A stretch of 37,595 nucleotides of DNA from a virus: positions 1 to 37,595 of IMG/VR virus record IMGVR_UViG_3300032322_000605; one strand, given 5' to 3'. Shown here piece after piece: positions 366-37,595 of this stretch. Every line of letters begins with the position of its first letter. Within the stretch, counting starts at the first letter, position 1. The position numbers and the translations under genes are program-made. Under the pieces are notes generated by a model. That model saw only the letters and a program-made list of their open reading frames with translations. It was not told the origin of the DNA and searched no databases.

Positions 366-650
366 TCACTTTGCTTGCATTCGACGCAACAATCTGCCAG
401 CAACCATTGGGTCGAGTGATGTGCCACGCCTAGCCGGCATGGAGTGTTTGATGTTCAGAATGTTTCTCAACTCATCCGCAAACAGCACATCCCCTGACGC
501 TGTTAGGGTCAGCATTGTTCGCAGAGCATCGTGTACAGCTGCAATGTCTGTTGCAACGAGCGCGTGACCATGTGCGTGCATTTGTCCCTGCGCGCTCAGT
601 AGAACATCCATCAGATTTGGTGGTCTTGTAAGTTTCGGCATCCTTGCCAT
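366..650 (-). CDS. Hypothetical protein, last gene of the leftward cluster
   Basis: A 94-aa protein (start MARMPKLTRP) with no domain I recognise and no signal or membrane segment. The middle (about residues 15-65) looks helical. The frame is open up to 710, but the longer form would translate the intrinsic terminator at 661-696, so the ATG at 650 is preferred. A second ATG at 641 is possible. The gene lies downstream of that terminator, so it may be expressed only by read-through or from its own promoter. It runs toward the late lysis genes and ends 17 bases from the lipoprotein stop. Confidence 0.5.
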   Translation of the reverse strand: MARMPKLTRPPNLMDVLLSAQGQMHAHGHALVATDIAAVHDALRTMLTLTASGDVLFADELRNILNIKHSMPARRGTSLDPMVAGRLLRRMQAK

Positions 651-660
651 GCGCGGATAA

Positions 661-696
661 TATAAAAACCCCGACCTGACGGAAGCCAGGCCGGGG
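661..696 (-). terminator. Intrinsic terminator, leftward
   Basis: Read on the minus strand, a 10-bp stem (CCCCGGCCTG / CAGGTCGGGG) encloses an 8-base loop and is followed at once by TTTTTATA. The one imperfect pair is G-U in the leftward RNA but would be A-C in the rightward RNA, which fixes the direction. It begins 27 bases after the stop of the 164-aa gene (723-1217) and should end the main leftward transcript. Confidence 0.85.
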
Positions 697-722
697 CGCA
701 GGGAGAACATACCTCCCCGAGT

Positions 723-1217
723 CTACAGCGAGACAGTACGGTGGTCGCCAAAGATGTTTTGCACATCGGCGCTGGGCGACCAGCGCGCAACCCATGCTCC
801 ATCTGTGGATAGCCACGTTTCGTTTCCTGAACCATCAATCCGTGCGATGGCGTACATGATTTCGCTGGCTGCTCTGCACCCACGTCCAAGCATGTCCATT
901 TCCAATTCAATGGACTTTGCGATGATTGGACCCAAAGGAGAATCAGCCGTCACGATGTCCCGCCGCACGGATTCGATGTCTTGCATGGACAGCGTATGGA
1001 CTGTTCCATAATCGCTCTCACCTAGCATGATCCATGCGATGTGTGTGGCCTCCCACGGAACCTCTTGGTTATGCCATAAGACCGTGCGAGTTTGGGAAAT
1101 TGAAAGCGCCTGCGAGCCTTTTGAAACAACACGCATCTGCCCCTCTAGCCGGCGATTAAAACGGAACATCAGAATCGCCAATCCAACCAGTAGCGAAATG
1201 ATTATCCATTCAGTCAT
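723..1217 (-). CDS. Hypothetical membrane-anchored protein
   Basis: A 164-aa protein with one N-terminal membrane segment (about residues 4-19, EWIIISLLVGLAILMF), followed by Arg-rich residues. This is the usual sign of an N-in anchor with a cytoplasmic or periplasmic body. The soluble part (about 30-164) is not a family I recognise. The start has a GGGGGTGG site just upstream and overlaps the end of the preceding gene by 8 bases, so the two are probably co-translated. A terminator follows the stop. It belongs to a leftward cluster transcribed away from the replication genes. A role in host takeover or superinfection exclusion is possible but unsupported. Confidence 0.65.
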   Translation of the reverse strand: MTEWIIISLLVGLAILMFRFNRRLEGQMRVVSKGSQALSISQTRTVLWHNQEVPWEATHIAWIMLGESDYGTVHTLSMQDIESVRRDIVTADSPLGPIIAKSIELEMDMLGRGCRAASEIMYAIARIDGSGNETWLSTDGAWVARWSPSADVQNIFGDHRTVSL

Positions 1218-1548
1218 TGTCCACCCCCAACCTGGCGTCTACGGCTGCCAATAGTTCCCTGGCATCCAACAGCATTTGCTCGCTGCGTGGATGTGGGTTT
1301 TCGCCTAGAGCTGCATCCGCATCCGCCTGCACCTGGCAACGAATCACGTGCTGGTACACGATCACCCTGCACCGTGCGAGTAGGCGGTGCAGGATCTCCT
1401 CCTCAACCACGGCATTCTGTGATGCTTCGCGAAGTTGGTGAACTGTTGACGTGCTAACAAACTGAACAGATTTGAGATCGTTTCCGGCCGCAGGAAGAGT
1501 GGACAGAATGTCGGAGACGGTTTGTGTTGGGGTCATGGCACGAGCCAT
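1210..1548 (-). CDS. Hypothetical protein
   Basis: A 112-aa protein starting MARAMTPTQT. This start is chosen over an in-frame ATG at 1569 because it has a strong AAGGAG site 8 bases upstream. The body looks mainly helical, with a His/Cys-containing stretch around residues 60-80 (LLARCRVIVYQHVIRCQ). No family is recognised. The N-terminal coding region overlaps the end of the 44-aa membrane gene at 1533-1667, and the C-terminus overlaps the start of the next gene, so the four genes here read as one tightly packed operon. Confidence 0.65.
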   Translation of the reverse strand: MARAMTPTQTVSDILSTLPAAGNDLKSVQFVSTSTVHQLREASQNAVVEEEILHRLLARCRVIVYQHVIRCQVQADADAALGENPHPRSEQMLLDARELLAAVDARLGVDND

Positions 1549-1667
1549 TGTAGGAACTCCTTGCTCCATGCTCCCGCGAGGAAGCCCGCGATTGACAGGG
1601 CACCAAAGGCATAGCCGAGGTAAAAGTCAGTCAGACTCGGCTCACGAACAGGTTGTGGCTTATTCAC
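1533..1667 (-). CDS. Very small membrane protein, translationally coupled
   Basis: A 44-aa reading frame starting with GTG at 1667 and ending with TGA at 1533-1535. Its GTG overlaps the stop codon of the upstream gene as GTGA, a standard coupling arrangement. The product begins MNKPQPVREP and has one hydrophobic, Gly/Ala-rich segment (about residues 15-34, FYLGYAFGALSIAGFLAGAW), so it should be a single-pass inner-membrane peptide. It fills what would otherwise be the only gap in the leftward operon. The function is unknown. Confidence 0.6.
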   Translation of the reverse strand: MNKPQPVREPSLTDFYLGYAFGALSIAGFLAGAWSKEFLQWLVP

Positions 1668-1882
1668 TCGCGACCCTCCGGATAGAGGTCCGCAAACATG
1701 TTGTGAAACAAACGCGATGCCTGTGGGCGCGGATTCAAATTGCGAGCGATCACGCGCTCAATTTGCGACGCCATATCGGCCGAGTCGCCAGACTCATTCA
1801 TGCAGATCAACCGCATGCTGTCGCGAACGAACGTGGCCTCGGACTCTGTGAGATGAACAACGACAAACTTTGACTGTGACAT
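1664..1882 (-). CDS. Hypothetical small protein
   Basis: A 72-aa protein starting MSQSKFVVVH. The ATG at 1882 has AGGAGA about 7 bases upstream, which decides against longer in-frame starts. The N-terminus looks like a short beta strand (KFVVVHLTESEA) followed by helices. The sequence is soluble and the family is not recognised. It is second in the leftward operon, after the sigma-like HTH gene, and its stop overlaps the GTG of the 44-aa membrane protein. Confidence 0.65.
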   Translation of the reverse strand: MSQSKFVVVHLTESEATFVRDSMRLICMNESGDSADMASQIERVIARNLNPRPQASRLFHNMFADLYPEGRE

Positions 1883-1939: not shown

Positions 1940-2161
1940 TCAGCTACGCGACGGACCTTTACGAAATTCGGTGCGATACCCAAACAGGGCTTTGCCGAGT
2001 TTTTGAATTGCACTTGTGTGATGAAACATCGCCTGCTCCATGGTCAAACCCATGATTTCTGCACATTCCTCCAGTGATCGGATTGGCTCCGCCGGCCGCA
2101 GGCGCATTTCTCCGTCGCGCTGCTTCTTGGCCTGGGTGCGGTCAACAATGCGAATTCTCAT
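1940..2161 (-). CDS. Sigma-region-4-like helix-turn-helix protein
   Basis: A 73-aa protein (start [10 protein letters not shown]). Residues 29-59 match the shape of sigma-70 region 4 / LuxR-type helix-turn-helix: [20 protein letters not shown] then [10 protein letters not shown]. This follows the pattern of sigma factors, a first helix, a turn with Gly, a recognition helix, and a final (R/K)KL segment. The N-terminus is basic. It is first in the leftward operon and faces a divergent control region. No Shine-Dalgarno site is present, but a TTGACA/TACATT promoter ends six bases before this ATG, suggesting a leaderless message. It may be a regulator of the early switch or a sigma-like factor for the late genes. 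The HTH call is good; the role is inferred. Confidence 0.7.
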
Positions 2162-2167
2162 ATCTGC

Positions 2168-2195
2168 AATGTACATGGATAACACGCAATGTCAA
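2168..2195 (-). promoter_or_regulatory. Leftward promoter, probably leaderless
   Basis: On the minus strand, TTGACA (2195-2190) is followed after 16 bases by TACATT (2173-2168). The -35 box is consensus and the -10 box matches at four of six positions. The box ends six bases before the ATG at 2161, so the predicted start of transcription is the A of that ATG. Confidence 0.6.
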
Positions 2196-2352: not shown

Positions 2353-3432
2353 ATGACAATTGCGAAGATGGATAGTGACACGTTGGGGCTGATTGCCCGC
2401 ACCGTGGCGAAGGGCTGCTCTGCGGATGAGCTGTCCCTGTTTGGTCAAATTTGCCAGCGCACTGGGCTTGATCCGTTCGCCCGTCAGATTTACGCGGTGA
2501 AGCGTTGGGATAGCCGCGAGAAGCGTGAGGTCATGCAGACACAGGTCAGCATCGACGGAGCGCGGTTGACCGCGCAGCGCAGCGGCGAATACGCCGGCCA
2601 GGCCGGACCGTTTTGGTGCGGCGATGACGGGGTTTGGAAGGACGTGTGGCTGTCGCCTGTCCCGCCAGTTGCGGCGAAGGTCGGCGTCTATCGACGCGGA
2701 TTCAGCGAGGCGCTTTGGGCGGTAGCTCTGTGGCGCGAGTACGCGCAGAAGGGCAAGGAAGGCCAACTGATCGGAATGTGGCCGAAGATGCCGAGCCTGA
2801 TGCTGGCGAAGTGCGCCGAGATGTTGAGCCTGCGGAAGGCATTCCCGGCGGAACTGTCGGGCCTTTACACGGCTGAGGAGATGGGCCAGGCAGACAACGA
2901 ACTGCCGATTCCGACGCCAGCGGTTGCTACCAAGCAGCCGGCCAAGCCAGAACCAATTCTGGTTACAGTTGTTGATAACTCTACCACAATTGCACCGAAG
3001 CCCGTTCAGGCGCAGCAGGATGCCCAGCAAGACATTCCTGCTCCCAAGACTACCAAGACCCAGGCCAAGGCCACGGAACGCGCCACAGCGGCTCCTAGCG
3101 CATTTGGCGAGGTGTTGGCATCTCGGCCGCCAAAGGATTGCGCGTGGCGTGGCGGGTTGACCATCAGGCGAGTCGGACAGGGTAAGCCCACAACAAAGGG
3201 GTCGAACCGCTACCCCATCCTGCTGGATGTTGGTGGTACAGAGCAGTGGGCTTCCTGCTTCGATGACCGCGTGATGCAAGCAGCGCAGGATGCCCTGGGC
3301 GGTCAGGCCGTCTCGGGGTTCGTGCAGGAGGGCCAGTATGGCTGGACTTTGTACGGCATCCGAACCGTGTTAGAATCCATTGAACAGCAGGCCGCGCCAG
3401 TCGCGGTTGAGGAAGACCACATTCCGTTCTGA
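2353..3432 (+). CDS. bet: Single-strand annealing recombinase, phage Bet/RecT family, with SSB-like C-terminal tip
   Basis: A 359-aa protein. The start ATG is preceded by AGGAGA. Residues 1-~185 are a typical Bet domain: a D-L repeat-containing N-terminus, then [20 protein letters not shown], the SIDGAR segment, and the region [20 protein letters not shown] before GLYTAEEM. These proteins anneal complementary single strands during phage recombination and end repair. A low-complexity Pro/Gln/Thr linker (about 190-250) joins a second domain (about 255-345) that I cannot name, and the protein ends in EEDHIPF. That acidic tail ending in IPF resembles the protein-binding tip of bacterial SSB. Lambda Bet is 261 aa, so about 100 residues are extra. 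No lambda-type exonuclease partner is seen next to it. Confidence 0.88.
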
Positions 3433-10666: not shown

Positions 10667-11057
10667 TGCCATTCAAGTCCAAGGCCCAGCAAAAGTTCAT
10701 GTACGCGAAGCACCCAAAGATCGCAGCACGCTTCGCCAAGAAAACCAAGAGCTTCAAGAGCCTGCCAGCACGCGCAAAGAAGCGAAAGTAATCGCTCTCA
10801 ACGAGCGCGGTTTCCGCATTGGCGCAACGCACCACAATGCCACGATCCCGGAAGAAACCATCCAGCGACTCCGATACCTCCACGAAGAAGAGGGAATCGG
10901 ATATCGACGCCTCTCCAGAATGTTCAATATCCGGCGCGATACAGTTGTCAAAATCTGCCGATACGAGCGACGGGGACAGGTTCCACACGCTTGGAAGAGG
11001 GTCAAAGAGAGTGGGAAGGCCAGCGGGCAAGATGCCCGTGCCGCAGATGGAGGCTGA
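10638..11057 (+). CDS. Helix-turn-helix protein, start uncertain
   Basis: An open frame of up to 139 aa. The conserved part is the last ~85 residues: ALNERGFRIGATHHNAT, EETIQRLRYLHEEEGIGYRR, then LSRMFNIRRDTVVKICRYERRGQ, a clear helix-turn-helix with an Arg-rich end, as in resolvase-type or terminase-linked HTH proteins of phages. The only usual start codon in frame is ATG 10638 (AAGG 6 bases upstream), which would make the first 51 residues antiframe to the 41-aa gene. No ATG, GTG or TTG lies near the domain edge. Its end overlaps the small terminase gene. It may act with the terminase or regulate packaging. Confidence 0.55.
   Translation: MHNSERDGSNAIQVQGPAKVHVREAPKDRSTLRQENQELQEPASTRKEAKVIALNERGFRIGATHHNATIPEETIQRLRYLHEEEGIGYRRLSRMFNIRRDTVVKICRYERRGQVPHAWKRVKESGKASGQDARAADGG
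10666..10791 (+). CDS. Tiny basic phage protein (KSKAQQ type)
   Basis: A 41-aa protein: MPFKSKAQQKFMYAKHPKIA followed by a Lys/Ser/Arg-rich tail with KSLPARAKKRK. The (F/W)(K)SKAQQ(R/K)(F/W)M(Y/F)A opening and SLP near the end are a recurring signature of short phage proteins placed before terminase genes. The function is unknown. The ATG overlaps the previous stop. An HTH reading frame runs through this gene in the -1 frame. Confidence 0.75.
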   Translation: MPFKSKAQQKFMYAKHPKIAARFAKKTKSFKSLPARAKKRK

Positions 11058-11406: not shown

Positions 11407-12724
11407 ACTCAACGTCGAGTTCCCATACGCGCCCAGACCGTGGCAGAAGGATTGCCACAGGACCAAGGCCAGGTTCAAGGTGCTGGCACTTCATCGCCGC
11501 GCCGGCAAGACGGAATTGGCACTTATGGAACTGTTGGACCACGCCGTCAAGTGCAGGCTGGACCTAGGGTTCTATGTGTATTTGGCCCCGTTCCTCAAGC
11601 AGGCGAAAGCCATCGCGTGGGCTAGGTTGAAGCAGAAACTTGATGCGTTCATGCGGGCCGGCGCTATTGACGTGAACGAGGCTGACTTGGCGGTGACATT
11701 CAGGCACAACAAGGCCACGATCCGCCTGTTTGGTGGAGACAACCCAGATGCCTTGCGTGGCGTTCGCTTGGATGGCGTGGTCATTGACGAGGTAGCCAAC
11801 ATCAGGCCAGAGGTTTGGAACGACATCATCCAGCCGGCGCTTTCAGACCGTAAGGGCTGGGCGTTGTTCATCGGAACTCCGGCAGGGATCAACCTGTTCA
11901 GCGAGTTGTTCTACCGGGCCAGCAGCCTGCCTGACTGGTATGCGACCCGCTACACGGTGCATGACACAGACGCGCTAGACCCGGAGGAGGTGCAGCGCCT
12001 TGAGCGCGATATGCCAGAGACGGCGTTCGCACGCGAATATTTGTGTGACTTCAGCGCGGCTGGCAGCGATCAGCTCATCAGCATGTCGGACGTGGAGTCG
12101 GCTTCCAAACTGGTTTACCAAGACGGCGATGTGATTGAATTTCCGCTCATCGTCGGCGTCGATCCTGCCAGGTTTGGTGATGACCGTAGCGTGATCGTGG
12201 TTCGCCAGGGCTTACGCATGGAAAAACCTATGATTCACCACGGTGTTGACAACATGCAATTGGCTGGACTTGTGGCGCAGGTCATTGATGATCGCGACCC
12301 TGACGCCGTGTTTATCGACGTGGGTGGCGGTGCCGGAGTCATCGACCGTTTGCGCCAGTTGGATTACTACATCGTGGAGGTGCCATTCGGTGGCAAGGCG
12401 AACCAGCCAAACCTGTTCGTAAACCGCCGTGCCGAGATGTGGTGGCAGGTCAAGGAGTGGCTCGGCAATGGCGGCAGCATCCCCAATGACACGGCACTAA
12501 AGGCGGAACTGTCAACGCCAACCTATTGGTTTGACGCCGTTGGCAAACGATGCTTGGAGTCGAAGGATGAAATCAAGAAAAGGTTGCAGGGCGGCGGCAG
12601 TCCAGACATCGCAGATGCGCTGGCGTTGACGTTTGCGTACCCGGTGGCAAAGCAACTACCGAGAGAGGTGCGCGAGAAGATCGACACCAGTCCTAAGGAT
12701 TACGATCCATACGAGTCAATGTAG
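11390..12724 (+). CDS. terL: Terminase large subunit
   Basis: A 444-aa packaging motor. Walker A is HRRAGKTE (Lys40, Thr41). Walker B is GVVIDEVA (Asp133, Glu134). A coupling motif, FIGTPAG, follows at about residues 162-168. The RNase-H-like nuclease has VGVDPARFGDD (Asp258), FIDVGGG (Asp310) and the final SPDIADALALTFAYP with Asp406/Asp409 as acidic ligands. It hydrolyses ATP to drive DNA into the prohead and cuts concatemers. The length is usual for podovirus TerL. It starts inside TerS. Its stop lies at the first longer gap of the rightward unit, where the late-promoter-like motif begins. Packaging type (pac or cos) cannot be read directly. Confidence 0.95.
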   Translation: MSHATKLNVEFPYAPRPWQKDCHRTKARFKVLALHRRAGKTELALMELLDHAVKCRLDLGFYVYLAPFLKQAKAIAWARLKQKLDAFMRAGAIDVNEADLAVTFRHNKATIRLFGGDNPDALRGVRLDGVVIDEVANIRPEVWNDIIQPALSDRKGWALFIGTPAGINLFSELFYRASSLPDWYATRYTVHDTDALDPEEVQRLERDMPETAFAREYLCDFSAAGSDQLISMSDVESASKLVYQDGDVIEFPLIVGVDPARFGDDRSVIVVRQGLRMEKPMIHHGVDNMQLAGLVAQVIDDRDPDAVFIDVGGGAGVIDRLRQLDYYIVEVPFGGKANQPNLFVNRRAEMWWQVKEWLGNGGSIPNDTALKAELSTPTYWFDAVGKRCLESKDEIKKRLQGGGSPDIADALALTFAYPVAKQLPREVREKIDTSPKDYDPYESM

Positions 12725-12752
12725 GTGCCCGTAATGACTGAAAAAATCAATA
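12724..12752 (+). promoter_or_regulatory. Late-promoter-like element 1
   Basis: GGTGCCCGTA (12724-12733), with TCAATA (12747-12752) exactly 16 bases after the GTGCCC core. It lies directly after the large terminase stop and 20 bases before the acetyltransferase gene. It is one of three copies in the window, all in intergenic gaps. It does not match the sigma-70 -35 consensus. Confidence 0.6.
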
Positions 12753-12775
12753 CCGTTCGCCGCAGGTTTCCATGA
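12734..12775 (+). CDS. Possible 13-codon leader peptide
   Basis: An ATG at 12734 opens MTEKINTVRRRFP, whose TGA overlaps the start of the acetyltransferase gene as ATGA. The acetyltransferase itself has only a weak AGG upstream, so coupling through this leader is conceivable. If the motif at 12724 is a promoter, its transcript would start downstream of this ATG and would not carry it. The leader would then be read only on through-transcripts. Confidence 0.3.
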   Translation: MTEKINTVRRRFP

Positions 12776-15306: not shown

Positions 15307-16101
15307 ATGCCATACCTTGTGCAAGGCACTAATTTCCTTTACGACAATACGACCAACGACATCGTTGGCATCAAGGACGCGGACGGAGGCGAGAAGTACT
15401 TCCCGATCATGCGGAACGAGCCGACGTACGCCACTACAACCACAGCTGTGTCAATCGTCGCTCCTGCCGCGACTTTCACCACGCTGACCTATGAGGACAG
15501 CAGCGGCAGCGTGCGTTTGGTGAGCGACGGCATCCATAGCCTCACGAACGCAGTCGCGCAGAACAGGCTTGTGAGCGTCACTTGGGCTGGCGGTACTGGC
15601 GTCAACGGCCTGTACACCGTCACCGATGTCAGCGCGGCCACTACGAAGATCACTATCAACTACCCGCACGCTGCCGGTCTCGGCACTCCAACCGTAACGG
15701 TTGTCGGTAACGACATCACTCTTGCTTCGGTGACCATTCCGGCGAACGCGATCAAGCTAGGCATGGAACTTGAGCTTGACGCGCTGTTTGCGATGACAGC
15801 AAGCGCCAACAACAAGATCTTCAAGGTAAACATCGGCGATGCCGGATGGTATTCGCAGACGGTTGCCGCATCGAACGCGAGCCTGTCCGTTGATAAGCAG
15901 GCGTGGGCGAACACAGCCACGACCCTAGTTTCAAATGCCCTCGCGGCACCAGGACACGGTACGTCAACTGGCGCAAACGTCACCATGACCCCGACTGGCG
16001 GATTCGGCATCGCGCAGACGTTCGCCATCACCGGGCAGATTGCAACCGCCAACGAGTTCGTCACGCTTGAGGCATGGAATCTCAAGATCACCAGCACGTG
16101 A
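15307..16101 (+). CDS. Structural protein, possible head fibre or decoration
   Basis: A 264-aa protein starting MPYLVQGTNFLYDNTTNDIV. The sequence is beta-rich and Thr/Ala-rich, with no signal and little charge after residue 35, typical of an outer virion protein. The N-terminus (about 1-35) has a motif FLYDNTTNDIVGIKDADGGE like the anchoring part of some head-fibre proteins. The family is not certain. It lies between the portal and the Bbp19-like gene, and its stop is followed at once by the second late-promoter-like element. Confidence 0.65.
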   Translation: MPYLVQGTNFLYDNTTNDIVGIKDADGGEKYFPIMRNEPTYATTTTAVSIVAPAATFTTLTYEDSSGSVRLVSDGIHSLTNAVAQNRLVSVTWAGGTGVNGLYTVTDVSAATTKITINYPHAAGLGTPTVTVVGNDITLASVTIPANAIKLGMELELDALFAMTASANNKIFKVNIGDAGWYSQTVAASNASLSVDKQAWANTATTLVSNALAAPGHGTSTGANVTMTPTGGFGIAQTFAITGQIATANEFVTLEAWNLKITST

Positions 16102-16102
16102 C

Positions 16103-16131
16103 GGTGCCCGTAGGAAATCAATAACTCCATA
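16103..16131 (+). promoter_or_regulatory. Late-promoter-like element 2
   Basis: GGTGCCCGTA (16103-16112), with TCCATA (16126-16131) exactly 16 bases after the GTGCCC core. It starts just after the stop of the previous gene and lies 11 bases before the Bbp19-like GTG start. An extra ATCAATA word also lies nearer (16117-16123). Confidence 0.55.
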
Positions 16132-16141
16132 AAGTTCCGCC

Positions 16142-16489
16142 GTGAGCAATTATGATCCGCTTGACCTGCGCAGCCAGGAACGCAGCAAAGCAGAACGCGA
16201 ACTGCGCGAACGGCTGGCTCGGGAGAATGAAGAAGCGGATATCAAGTGGCTCATGGGCAACAAGCGAGGCCGTCGCATCATTTGGCGGCTTCTGGATCAC
16301 GCAGGAGTGTTCCGTTCGTCGTTCAACACCAACGCGATGGCAATGTCATTCGCCGAAGGTCACAGGAACTACGGACTTCGCATTCTGTCAATGATCCATT
16401 CGCAGTGCCCCGAACTGTATCCAACCATGATGAAGGAGCAGACAGCAGATGAACGAATCAACGATGATGGAAGCCGCAACTCCAACTAA
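16142..16489 (+). CDS. Bbp19-like virion protein
   Basis: A 115-aa protein starting at GTG 16142 (MSNYDPLDLR). The core DIKWLMGNKRGRRIIWRLLD, then SFNTNAMAMSFAEGHRNYGL and CPELYPTMMKE, matches what I know of Bbp19-type proteins of BPP-1-like podoviruses. These lie between portal and scaffold genes. The role is structural or assembly-related but not established here. No strong ribosome site is seen. The gene ends 41 bases inside the next gene. Confidence 0.8.
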   Translation: MSNYDPLDLRSQERSKAERELRERLARENEEADIKWLMGNKRGRRIIWRLLDHAGVFRSSFNTNAMAMSFAEGHRNYGLRILSMIHSQCPELYPTMMKEQTADERINDDGSRNSN

Positions 16490-23585: not shown

Positions 23586-25340
23586 ATGCCGACCGTACCT
23601 ACATCGTTCGTACCGCAGGTTGCTTCGCAGAGCGGTGGTGACATTGGACAGTTCCAAGCACCACAGGTGGCGGTGACAGAGAACCTTGCCGCTCCTCAGC
23701 AGGTGCGGTTCGGTGCAGCCATGACGGGTGCTGGAAATCAGGTGTTCCGTCTTGGTAGTGCTATTCAGGACGGTATTGATGAGGCACAGACCAAGGCCGC
23801 TGATATCGCATTCCTCCAGCAAGCCAATTCCATGCTGCGTGGCGATCAGGGATACCTGCGAACTGTTGGCAAGGACGCTGAGTCGCGGTACGCATCGACA
23901 GCAGACGCATTGACGCAGGCTGGACAATCGACGCTAGACGGACTTCAGAACGATACACAGAAGTCGATGTTCAAGAATGTACTTGCACGGAACATGATGA
24001 CGTTCCAGGCGCAAGCACTCGACCACCGCGACAAGGAAGTGAAGGTCTTTGCGGCAAATGAATCTCGCGCTCGAGCGGATCAGTACGCAGCTCTTGCGAT
24101 TCAGGACTTTGAAAATCGCGGCGAACTGTTGAGTGGTTACGAGATCAATCGTGGCGTGGCCCTAAACGAACTAAAGCAGGCTGCATCGCTGTCCGGCATT
24201 CCAGAGGGTTCGGCGCAGTTCACGGCAATTCAGCAGCAACTTGATACGCAACTTACGACAGGGGTGGTCAATCGACTGATGCTGGACAACCGCTACGACG
24301 AGGCTTACAAGTGGGTTGATGCCCAGCGCAAGGCTGGTAATTTGGAGCGCAGGGCGGGTGACAGCCTGATGGCATCAATTGATGCAAACCGGGATCGCTT
24401 CATAATTGATGAATATGCAACGACCATCAAGGGATATGGGCGCGTTGGAAGCCCAAATGATGAGGCCAACGACCCGCAGGAGGCTCCAGCATCGCTCAGG
24501 GACGCTTTGGACATTGCTGACGGGATCAAAGACCCGGAGATCCGCAAGGGCGTCCAGGCGGCTCTGCGGACCCAATACGGGCAGGAGGAGGCATTGGCTC
24601 GGCAGGAATACAACTTCCTGATCGACCGAACCGAGCAGTTCCTTGCCATACCTGGCAATGACGTAAATAAGATCCCTCCTTCCGCATGGGGCCGGCTGAA
24701 GCCGACCGATCAGGCGCGATTCCTAAAGTCGCAGCGCGAGGTTGATGAACTTGGAGTCATGGAGGAGTTGGCACGCAATCCTTCGGTACTGACTCGCGAG
24801 TACTTGGAAGAAAACCGTGGTCGCATGACGCGGCAGACCTACACCAAGTTGCTCGGAGACATGAACGCTCCAGACAAGGTGATCGCGGCCACGCTTGACG
24901 CAGATCAGGTTGAGGCCACGTTCTTGGCAAATGGAATGACTAGCTTGACGAACCCGCGAACGGACTCGGAGAAGAACGAATCGCTCACGCTCCGCAACAT
25001 GTTCAAGGCGCAGATTGATGACATGCAGAGTGCGATGAAGCGACCGCTGAATCGAACCGAGAAGCAGCGCGTACTGGATCAGGTCATCCTGCAATACAAC
25101 GAAAAGGGATATGAGCCTGATTGGGTATTTGACAACGAGATGCGACTTGGTGCCATGACCGCAGAGCAGCGCCAAACCGCGTACGTCATGGTTGGGAAAA
25201 ATCGCGTTACGTTGTCGAGTGTTCCGCAATCGTTTGTGTCTAACGTGGCGTTGCCAGAGTTCCGCAAGGCGGGCGTCACAAATCCAACCATGCAGCAGAT
25301 CGCCGACTATTGGCTTCGAAAGGGCAGGCCGTCCGAATGA
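23586..25340 (+). CDS. Internal virion / ejection protein
   Basis: A 584-aa protein, 2 bases after the gp14-like gene. It is almost wholly helical, with charged and Gln-rich stretches (GNQVFRLGSAIQDGIDEAQT, QALDHRDKEVKVFAANESRA). The C-terminal part ends ADYWLRKGRPSE. It has the size, order and composition of the second podovirus ejection protein (T7 gp15-like role in the periplasmic part of the channel). No enzyme motif is seen. It overlaps the giant gene by 4 bases. Confidence 0.75.
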   Translation: MPTVPTSFVPQVASQSGGDIGQFQAPQVAVTENLAAPQQVRFGAAMTGAGNQVFRLGSAIQDGIDEAQTKAADIAFLQQANSMLRGDQGYLRTVGKDAESRYASTADALTQAGQSTLDGLQNDTQKSMFKNVLARNMMTFQAQALDHRDKEVKVFAANESRARADQYAALAIQDFENRGELLSGYEINRGVALNELKQAASLSGIPEGSAQFTAIQQQLDTQLTTGVVNRLMLDNRYDEAYKWVDAQRKAGNLERRAGDSLMASIDANRDRFIIDEYATTIKGYGRVGSPNDEANDPQEAPASLRDALDIADGIKDPEIRKGVQAALRTQYGQEEALARQEYNFLIDRTEQFLAIPGNDVNKIPPSAWGRLKPTDQARFLKSQREVDELGVMEELARNPSVLTREYLEENRGRMTRQTYTKLLGDMNAPDKVIAATLDADQVEATFLANGMTSLTNPRTDSEKNESLTLRNMFKAQIDDMQSAMKRPLNRTEKQRVLDQVILQYNEKGYEPDWVFDNEMRLGAMTAEQRQTAYVMVGKNRVTLSSVPQSFVSNVALPEFRKAGVTNPTMQQIADYWLRKGRPSE

Positions 25341-28300
25341 TTCCGTTTACGCCAGACGACCGTCGAGCGCAGTTCGCACCTTCGCAGAATATTGGAGGTG
25401 CAGTAGACCGCGACGTGCTAGACATCATCGGCGCACAACCGCAGCAGACGATGGCGGCGCAAGTCGATTACGAATTGCCAGACATCAAGCCAGTCGATCC
25501 GGATGTTGTGGCAATCGTGAACCAGAATCAGGGTCCGCTTATGGCGTCTCTGATGGGCGCATCGCAGGTGAATCCGGATCAGGCGGCGGAAGCAAAGCGC
25601 ATTGGTTCACAGATTGGTATCGGACAGGACATCGCTTTGCGGAACATGGATGACGTGCGGCAGCGCGCATTCATGGCCGATGTACAGCGCCGCGACATTG
25701 CGCGTGCGAACCCGGTGCTTGCGGGCTTCTTGACCGACAGAACATTTGCGAACGAGGCGAGTGACGATATTGGAACACTCGACCGTGTTGGTTCATTCTT
25801 TGCAGACATTGGCCGTGCAGCTGCCGGTAGGCCAATGTATTACACGGCTGGCGAATTGGCTCGCGGATACATGCGCGGCCAACTTGTCGCAGAGCGTGGA
25901 GAAATTGGTACGAGGGCAATCTTGGGGGAGGCAGAGGAAACAAACTTTGCTCGCGCCAAGCAAATTCAGGCCGAGATGCGTGACCTTGCCGGCGGTGGCA
26001 TTATCGCATCAACTGCCGAAGTCGTGGCGCAAAATGTGGCTCAGGCGCGAGAGGTGGTCGGCGCTGGTTTGGTTGGCGGCGCAGCAGGATCTGTGATCCC
26101 AGGCATTGGCACAATGACTGGATTTGCTGGCGGTTTGGGAACGGGCATTGTTTTGACAACGGCAAAAATGGAAGCCGGAAACCTGTACTTGGACCTTCAG
26201 GAACAGGGTATTAGCGATGACACGGCAGTTCCAATTGCTGTCGGCGCTGGCTTGCTGAACGGCGTGGTTGAAGCCGTTGGCATGAAGGTCGCCGCAGCTC
26301 CGTTTCGACAATTGGCAGTGCGCGTGATGCGCGAGCAAATTGCAGAAGCAATACAGAAGCCGACGATGCGCGCCGCGCTGGCGGCAGCCGGCAAGGCTTA
26401 TGTTGTCCAAGTCGGATCAGAAGCGACAGAGGAAGGTTTGCAGGAGATTGTGAACATTGCCGGCGAGGAACTTGCCAAGGGCATGGAGGGCATCGACAGC
26501 GAAACGACCATGCGAGATGCGGCCAAGCGCGTGCTGGATTCGTTTGTGCAGGGAGCAATGGGCGGGTCCATTCTTGGCGGTATCGGCCCAGGCGCGAACC
26601 TGTATGTCGATTTGCGGCGGGCTAACAAGGCCACGAAGCAGACGCGGTTCTTCGATGATCTGTCAAAGAACGCCACCGAGTCAAAGCTCAAGGCGCGAGA
26701 TGCTGGAGCATACGAACGGTTTGTGGCAGCAACGGCTGACGGAACCGGCGCTGATACGGTGTTTGTTGATGGCGCAACCATTCGCGACGTGCTGACGCAG
26801 GCCGGAGTGACTGACACGCAACTTGACGCCATCATTCCTGGTATGGCGCAGCAGGTGCGTCAGGCCGTCAAACTTGGCAACGACGTTACGCTGCCAACCT
26901 CGCAGTTTGCGGCGCGTTTAGCAGGCACGAAGTTGGGAGACGCACTAATGCCGCATATGCGCCTGTCGCCAGATGCGATGAGCGCAATGGAGGCGCAGCA
27001 GTTTGAGCAGAGCCGCGAGGCGTTGGTTGAGGAGGCTCGTGCCCTGCTTGATGCCAAGACCGAGGCAGAGAGTGCATTTGTTCAGGAAGCGGATCAGATC
27101 GCATCAAGCATGCGCGATAAATTGGTGGCTGCTGGTCGTGATCCTGCAATGGCTGAAGTCGAATCACTTGTGCATCAGGCATTCGTGGTTACGCAGGCTG
27201 CACGTCGTGGGATGACGCCGTCCCAGTTTGAGGCCGAGAGCGGACTGCGCGAGATCGTTGGTGTTCCGCAGGTGCGCGACGAAAGCATGGCTGCTCCTAC
27301 CGGACCTCTTGAGCAGGCGAATCGCAATGTTATTTCAGCTGTTGACGCAGAACTTGGTCGCGTTATGGACGCAGCCAAGGAGGCGAGCCGTGCTGATGGA
27401 AAGCCAAAAAGCAAGGACATACAAACCGCTGCCAAAAAGGCCAAACAACAATGGATTGCGGCCAATCCAGCACGATACGAGGAATACCAGGCCGCGCAGC
27501 GCATGGAAGCTTTGGAGAACGAGCGCGTTCGAGAAGCCGCGGCTTCGGCGTTGGCCGGCAAGATTGATGAATCACTTGCAACGGCGGCAAAGACTTTGAC
27601 CGATGCGGGATTCGTGTTGGATTACGAATCACCTGCGCCGAGCAAATCCAGGTATTACCGCAAGGGAAACACGCTGATTCGCTTGTCCGATCACGAAATA
27701 CCCGTTACGCCAGAGCGAGCCGCAGCGCGTGAAGCCGGTGTCCAAGTTCCATATCGCGATTTTGTGTTTGATGGAACGGCAGTTGACGCAGAGTTGATTC
27801 AGGACTTGAAAGAGTTTGCTGCGCGCACGTCGCCCAACATCATGGAGCAGGCGGCGATGTTTGAGCAGGCTCCCGTCAGCCCAGGCTTCTACTCCGCGCT
27901 CGCAAAGTCCGTCAATGCCATCGACGCCAAGAGCATCGCGCCGTCCGGTTGGAAGGAGCGGATCAAGGGGCTTGTAAACAAGGGCGAGGTGAAGCAGGAC
28001 GAGGTGGACTGGAGCGGCCTGACGGACTGGCTTGACATGCAGGATGGCAAGGTCACAAAGGAGGCCGTGACCGAGTTCCTCAAGAACAACGGCGTGCGCG
28101 TGGAGCGCGTTCAGTTGCAAGAAAATTTAGACACCGTTTGGGTGGTTCGGCGTCGTGATGGACCGCTAGAGACATTTGCAACCAAAGCCGAAGCAGAAAG
28201 TGCAGCGGAGGAATATCAAACCTCCGATGAGCGTGAATACCGCAATGCGGCTGAAGAACTATATGAAGTCATCCAAACCGACGATGAAGAATGGTCGGTA

Positions 28301-33392: not shown

Positions 33393-33421
33393 GGTGCCCG
33401 TATCCGTGACCGATATCAATA
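33393..33421 (+). promoter_or_regulatory. Late-promoter-like element 3
   Basis: GGTGCCCGTA (33393-33402), with TCAATA (33416-33421) exactly 16 bases after the GTGCCC core. It follows the stop of the giant gene directly and lies 31 bases before the tail-fibre start. It would serve the fibre and lysis genes. Confidence 0.6.
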
Positions 33422-33452
33422 GGTTTGCACCGACTTCACAGGAGTCCTGACC

Positions 33453-37316: not shown

Positions 37317-37499
37317 ATGAAGCAGAACTGGAAGACCACTAGCGCTGGCATCGCCGCAATCCTCGTCGCCGTTGGCTCGGCTTTGAAGGCGTTCACGGAT
37401 AATGACGCCACCACGGTGCCGGACATTGGTGCGTGCATCGCGGCCATCATGGCTGGCGTGGGCCTGATCCTCGCCAAGGACGCTAGCAAGGCCGACTGA
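37317..37499 (+). CDS. Holin-like small membrane protein
   Basis: A 60-aa protein starting MKQNWKTTSAGIAAILVAVG, with AAAGGA about 7 bases upstream. Two hydrophobic segments lie at about residues 8-26 and 37-54 (DIGACIAAIMAGVGLILAKD), separated by a short polar loop, and the C-terminus is charged (KDASKAD). Size and two-segment layout fit a class II or small phage holin that makes holes in the inner membrane at the end of infection. The next gene overlaps its stop across the contig ends. An endolysin is not visible beside it. Confidence 0.75.
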   Translation: MKQNWKTTSAGIAAILVAVGSALKAFTDNDATTVPDIGACIAAIMAGVGLILAKDASKAD

Positions 37500-37595
37500 T
37501 GGCCTGGTTGTCACAACTCATTGCAGCCATCGTGGCCGAGGTACTGGCGCGATTTGGCGGCGACATTGGAAAGGTAAAGGCAACCAATGCGAAGC
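37473..37595. repeat. Right copy of 123-bp terminal direct repeat
   Basis: Exact copy of bases 1-123. It holds the last codons of the holin-like gene (stop at 37497-37499) and the first 32 codons of the 56-aa gene that is complete at 27-197. The two window ends are therefore contiguous on the real molecule. Confidence 0.95.
37499..37595 (+). CDS. 5' part of the 56-aa lysis-region gene (complete copy at 27-197)
   Basis: The first 32 codons, cut by the window end. The same bases are present at 27-123, so this is not a second gene. It confirms that the two ends join. Confidence 0.9.
   Translation, partial: MAWLSQLIAAIVAEVLARFGGDIGKVKATNAK

Follow-up and report, generated by a model that had tools for sequence, protein, structure and literature searches.

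A predicted leaderless early regulator gene and a candidate late-promoter class in a BPP-1-like phage genome

The mRNA of the lambda repressor gene cI is leaderless. Late transcription in Gram-positive phages is activated by RinA, ArpU and Ltr, small regulators encoded near terS, which are thought to switch on the packaging genes. An Ltr late activator has been treated in PMC13123087, and leaderless genes adjacent to the −10 hexamer have been described for Deinococcus (PMC12340547). In phage T4, MotA/AsiA act through an activator box that lies ahead of a sigma-70 −10 hexamer and replaces the −35 hexamer (PMC6755090). For BPP-1 (Rauchvirus, NC_005357), the literature searched contained no description of how the late genes are transcribed.

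In this study, we analysed a phage sequence of 37,595 bp, in the following called the window, which means the whole stretch of DNA under investigation. Its ends carry an exact 123-bp direct repeat (positions 1-123 and 37473-37595); the window is therefore probably a complete genome, either circularly closed or terminally redundant. It shares the gene order HTH-terS-terL-GNAT-...-portal-...-Bbp19-protease-capsid-...-giant protein-fibre with BPP-1, and both phages bear the late elements described below in the same gaps (terL/GNAT, Bbp19, fibre). BPP-1 differs in the spelling of the element, which is GGTGCCCGTG, in having no detected homologue of the leftward regulator gene sig4, and in carrying genes annotated as cI/cro as well as an integrase, which were not found in the window. 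Throughout, the evidence for the readings of sig4 and of the late elements is comparative. The features of the divergent early region are the following:

366..710, minus strand: L5, gene of the leftward operon, assigned by synteny
723..1217, minus strand: L4, gene of the leftward operon, anchor of the family
1210..1569, minus strand: L3, gene of the leftward operon, assigned by synteny
1664..1882, minus strand: L2, second gene of the operon, with a strong Shine-Dalgarno (SD) site AGGAG
1940..2161, minus strand: sig4, 73-aa protein with a helix-turn-helix (HTH) of the sigma-region-4.2 type, leads the leftward operon
2168..2173, minus strand: −10 hexamer TACATT of the leftward promoter P_L, six bases 5' of the sig4 ATG
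2190..2195, minus strand: −35 hexamer TTGACA of P_L, unchanged in G001-G003, G042 and L313-L315
2220..2237, minus strand: candidate operator, direct repeat ATGCGTC-N4-ATGTGTC with an 11-bp period
2353..3432, plus strand: RecT-like annealing protein, first rightward gene, with an SD site AGGAG

The preliminary description of this DNA had assigned a 73-aa protein to the first leftward gene, preceded by a promoter TTGACA-N16-TACATT which ends six bases before the ATG, without an SD site. The reading frame, start and coordinates were confirmed, with the ATG at 2161 and the stop at 1942-1940 on the minus strand, and so was the promoter: the sig4 strand reads TTGACA-N16-TACATT-GCAGAT-ATG. No SD match of at least 3 nt was found 5' of the sig4 ATG; most other genes in the window possess one. 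Both strands were scanned for sites with at least 10/12 matches to the sigma-70 hexamers, a spacer of 15-19 and at least 4/6 matches in the −10 hexamer, and besides P_L only two other sites in the genome reach 10/12. Three close relatives (G001-G003) share both hexamers with the window and keep its 6-bp gap before the ATG, which makes four genomes in all. In one of them (G003, locus L006) the spacer is rewritten and an alternative upstream ATG at 2176 is gone, which supports ATG 2161 as the start of sig4. The hexamers recur with different spacers in G042 and L313-L316, and their retention while the spacers change indicates that P_L is a real promoter. The position of the −10 hexamer and the lack of an SD site, kept in the four genomes, support the leaderless geometry proposed earlier, and the predicted sig4 transcript probably begins on its own ATG. 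A further leftward promoter upstream may exist and would give the sig4 mRNA a leader. The geometry read from the sequence for sig4 resembles that of lambda cI and the Deinococcus genes (PMC12340547), which likewise lack an SD site and have the −10 hexamer only a few bases from the start codon.

All members of the sig4 family, at least 20 loci, lie within a sig4-L2-L3-L4-L5 operon, in which most relatives have sig4 in second place behind an extra gene, L0, and not leaderless. In G042 and L313-L315, TTGACA-N16-TACATT with unrelated spacers is followed by about 40 bases containing AGGAG and then by L0, whose end is overlapped or abutted by the sig4 homologue. G004 has TTGACG-N17-TAGGTT, then a leader with an SD site and then L0. 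Since the same P_L is found with a leader and L0 in G042 and L313-L315, the leaderless form is local to the window lineage, where it seems to have arisen when L0 was lost together with its leader.

A leaderless gene at a divergent early promoter also invites comparison with a lysis-lysogeny switch, in which sig4 would be a cI/Cro-like repressor; the preliminary description had likened the start of its message to that of lambda cI. The analogy concerns only this leaderless start: neither an integrase nor a protein with an HTH_3/XRE domain was found in the window, and no integrase was found in the ten phages searched. The second place of sig4 in the operon of most relatives also speaks against this role, which we consider improbable.

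The sig4 family was gathered by synteny upstream of recT and comprises two phage groups. Single sig4 homologues yielded few new members as queries, and a profile built from all sig4 rows was too variable for this purpose; L4 was used as query instead. No relatives of sig4 or L4 were found in bacterial genomes, and none of sig4 among GenBank phages. The family consensus is P[IL]RT.EE.AE.LGLT.EQV...E..A..KLR.ALS.YGY.KE. For the window protein no significant match was obtained in Pfam, PHROG, NCBIfam or PDB, and hits to TRAP/MtrB (Pfam, NCBIfam, PDB) with E values of 0.1 or worse were treated as chance. The homologue of G004 passes the Pfam family Sigma70_r4 (PF04545) with 24.7 against a cut-off of 24.1 bits, in the segment LRTLAEVSEMTGLTWEQVRYIEENAFDKI, and also resembles the C-termini of RpoH, RpoS and RpoD below their respective cut-offs; those of G033/G034, G035 and G042 remain under the Sigma70_r4 cut-off. 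AlphaFold places the HTH helices of sig4 at residues 30-37 and 41-67 (pLDDT blocks 88-94, mean 71.8), and the family consensus and these helices agree with an HTH of the region 4.2 type. With this model as query, Foldseek listed domain 4 of sigmaA, region 4 of SigR and LuxR-type HTHs near the top, at non-significant E values (>2). The likeness to sigma region 4 claimed earlier is thus retained for the motif, by way of the 4.2-type HTH and the G004 homologue, but not as a detectable match of the window protein itself, and the comparison of folds points the same way without reaching significance.

In common with sigma-70 region 4 (PF04545), sig4 has an HTH of the 4.2 type, but it has only the second half of that domain. 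Region 4.1 is absent, the Sigma70_r4 match being confined to model positions 21-50, and the sig4 model has low confidence for residues 1-20 and no long helix before residue 30. Region 2, responsible for −10 recognition and core binding, is absent as well from the 73 aa, which contain no other domain. Because regions 4.1 and 2 are missing and only region 4.2 is kept, sig4 is not a sigma factor. A partial sigma-4 domain might alternatively belong to an anti-sigma or sigma-appropriation-type protein which contacts RNA polymerase rather than DNA, and T4 AsiA/MotA are phage proteins acting at sigma region 4 (PMC6755090). The half that sig4 keeps is, however, the DNA-reading HTH and not region 4.1, and we regard such a function as quite improbable.

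The second set of features concerns the late genes, all on the plus strand:

about 10788..11057, plus strand: conserved core of a Bbp27-like HTH protein directly 5' of terS; open frame from ATG 10638
12724..12756, plus strand: late element 1, GGTGCCCGTA-N17-TACCGT, 3' of terL
16103..16135, plus strand: late element 2, GGTGCCCGTA-N17-TAAAGT, six bases 5' of the GTG of the Bbp19-like gene
33393..33425, plus strand: late element 3, GGTGCCCGTA-N17-TAGGTT, before the tail-fibre gene

The three exact copies of GGTGCCCGTA reported before were found again at 12724, 16103 and 33393. Comparison of equivalent late-gene sites across BPP-1-like phages revealed that the elements are bipartite, with the general form RGTRCCCGTR-N17-TANNNT. 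Among 38 distinct sequences, 37 have TA exactly 17 bp past the box, and 37 have T at position six of the hexamer. By our own arithmetic, box and hexamer together have an expectation of about 0.01 per genome, versus 3-4 occurrences observed. The sites lie after terL, before the Bbp19-like gene and before the fibre gene; some phages have a further site before terS or in the tail region. Within a phage, every site carries the element in the same spelling. For instance, the complete genome G044, which has a 127-bp repeat, carries AGTACCCGTA at all three sites; in BPP-1 the elements are located at 24132 (terL/GNAT), 20747 (Bbp19), 6185 (fibre) and 26294 (before terS). CCCGTA-N17-TANNNT has the spacing usual for sigma-70 promoters but a −35 that is foreign to them, and the late elements appear from these comparisons to be a real, apparently undescribed promoter class. 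This arrangement is the same as for T4 MotA/AsiA (PMC6755090); the proteins and the box differ, and for the late elements such a mechanism is a proposal.

Other functions of the element were also considered. As a hairpin or read-through signal it was rejected on inspection: complementarity between its two halves is inconsistent, and the reading frames past the terL stop vary between phages. G033 has a lone GGTGCCCGTA, which was attributed to chance because the N17-TANNNT half is missing. A search for repeated 10-mers after the stop, made in the phages that have another late module, gave nothing comparable to GGTGCCCGTA.

Further observations were made at individual sites. Element 2 reads TAAAGT-TCCGCC-GTG without an SD site (16103-16142), and the Bbp19-like late gene may be leaderless too. 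In some relatives an ATG follows the hexamer of the element after only 1-2 bases; hence that start cannot in every case serve the gene immediately downstream. The window, G042 and G044 have a gene between the portal gene and element 2 (15307-16101 in the window) that the close relatives G001-G003 lack. The BPP-1 (L334) element at 26294 lies inside the annotated start of terS, which suggests that this start has been annotated too far upstream. Caulobacter phage SR18 (L338) has the box GGTGCGCATG at 2271, 22711 and 38791 (terS, fibre and Bbp19-like sites) together with a diverged homologue of the HTH protein.

In the preliminary description, sig4 and the late elements had been joined into one switch, in which sig4 would take over from sigma region 4 at GGTGCCCGTA and turn on the late genes. 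Its 4.2-type HTH and its co-occurrence with GGTGCCCGTA in G000-G004 and G042 agree with this model, but the distribution of the two does not. Seven complete genomes that carry elements (G044, DC33, BPP-1, ctEw122, ctQRb9, zth2-2 and SR18) gave no detectable sig4 homologue, and the sig4 operon is present in G013-G015 and G033-G035, which have another late module and no elements. In addition, the recognition helix of sig4 is 39-50% identical between G000, G004 and G042, whereas the element is identical in all three. A partnership of sig4 with the late elements is very improbable on these grounds, and the HTH protein encoded before terS fits the data better.

Directly upstream of terS, the window encodes the Bbp27-like HTH protein. 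In the window lineage there is no ATG, GTG or TTG at the start of its conserved core (10788-11054), and the exact start codon is uncertain; in G004 and G044 the gene overlaps the small ORF before it by GTGA. Among the TerL loci in which the region before terS is visible, the HTH protein is present in 54/55 loci with elements and absent in 16/17 without (Fisher p ~7e-14, with clades that are not independent). Its recognition helix changes with the spelling of the element: [IL][RK]RDTV[VI]KICRYERR is found in 35/35 GGTGCCCGTA loci (one with KRDTV), and [AR]W[YTF]TV.KI[AC][KR]YQRR in 19/19 AGTACCCGTR loci. BPP-1, DC33, ctEw122, ctQRb9, zth2-2 and SR18 all combine the HTH protein with 3-4 elements in corresponding places. 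The record of Limnohabitans phage DC33 names Inoviridae, a taxonomy line which is probably wrong because this phage possesses the elements of BPP-1-like tailed phages and the HTH homologue.

From these data, the Bbp27-like HTH protein is the most likely candidate for the reader of the late elements. The late promoter would have RGTRCCCGTR where the −35 hexamer normally lies, a 17-bp spacer and TANNNT as −10, and the HTH protein would activate it by standing in for sigma-4 binding at −35. In its small size and its position near terS the protein resembles RinA/ArpU/Ltr, with which no sequence relation was shown; unlike in those systems, the late genes here are interspersed with 3-4 promoters that share a single spelling. 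AlphaFold predicts a tri-helical protein (core pLDDT 77-89) without a nuclease part, and Foldseek found likeness to domains of DeoR and of ECF sigma region 4; the E values (>0.3) were not significant, and the folds are thus indicative only.

A different assignment would leave the reading of the elements to a host factor, an alternative sigma or activator, with the protein before terS having a role in packaging or being a relic of an HNH-type endonuclease. The BPP-1 homologue Bbp27, located at the same place before terS, is annotated as endonuclease, and the families neighbouring the HTH protein carry endonuclease/HNH annotations. Two loci also break the association, namely L129/G041 with the HTH protein and no element at the examined sites (terL), and L121, a 4.4-kb fragment, with an element and the HTH region replaced. 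Against it, each phage keeps to a single spelling of the element, which changes along with the HTH recognition helix, and the predicted fold is a simple tri-helical HTH devoid of a nuclease part. We consider this assignment rather unlikely and lean, with somewhat more than even confidence, towards BPP-1-like phages having an unrecognised class of late promoters, the box of which is read by the Bbp27-like HTH protein, with protein and box co-evolving in each phage.

For sig4, a function as early-region regulator is more likely than one as late switch. The protein, a putative small DNA-binding regulator, would be made early from a promoter of host sigma-70, its gene leading the conserved leftward operon. 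Its probable place of action is the early divergent control region, a natural location for such a regulator, where it would work by autoregulation, by control of transcription on the recT side or by both; its site would perhaps be the direct repeat at 2220-2237. This repeat, as ATG[TC]GTC-N4-ATGTGTC with at most one mismatch, occurs once per genome in the divergent region of 6/6 phages with window-type sig4, compared with 0.4 copies expected per shuffled genome; a scan of 19 genomes found it at no other place. It is inverted in G004 and missing from the remaining sig4 phages, which are not of the window type. As reader of the repeat, sig4 is a weak candidate because its recognition helix diverges among phages which have the repeat in common. 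Taken jointly, we find it fairly probable that sig4 is an early regulator and not the partner of the late elements, for which the Bbp27-like HTH protein is the best candidate reader.

The assignment of the late switch is thereby moved from sig4 to an HTH candidate that is open to direct testing. Nature provides both matched and mismatched combinations of HTH protein and promoter spelling, including those of BPP-1, the model phage for tropism-switching retroelements. The sig4 gene itself would represent a natural before/after example, in which a leader and an upstream gene were lost and the downstream gene turned leaderless.
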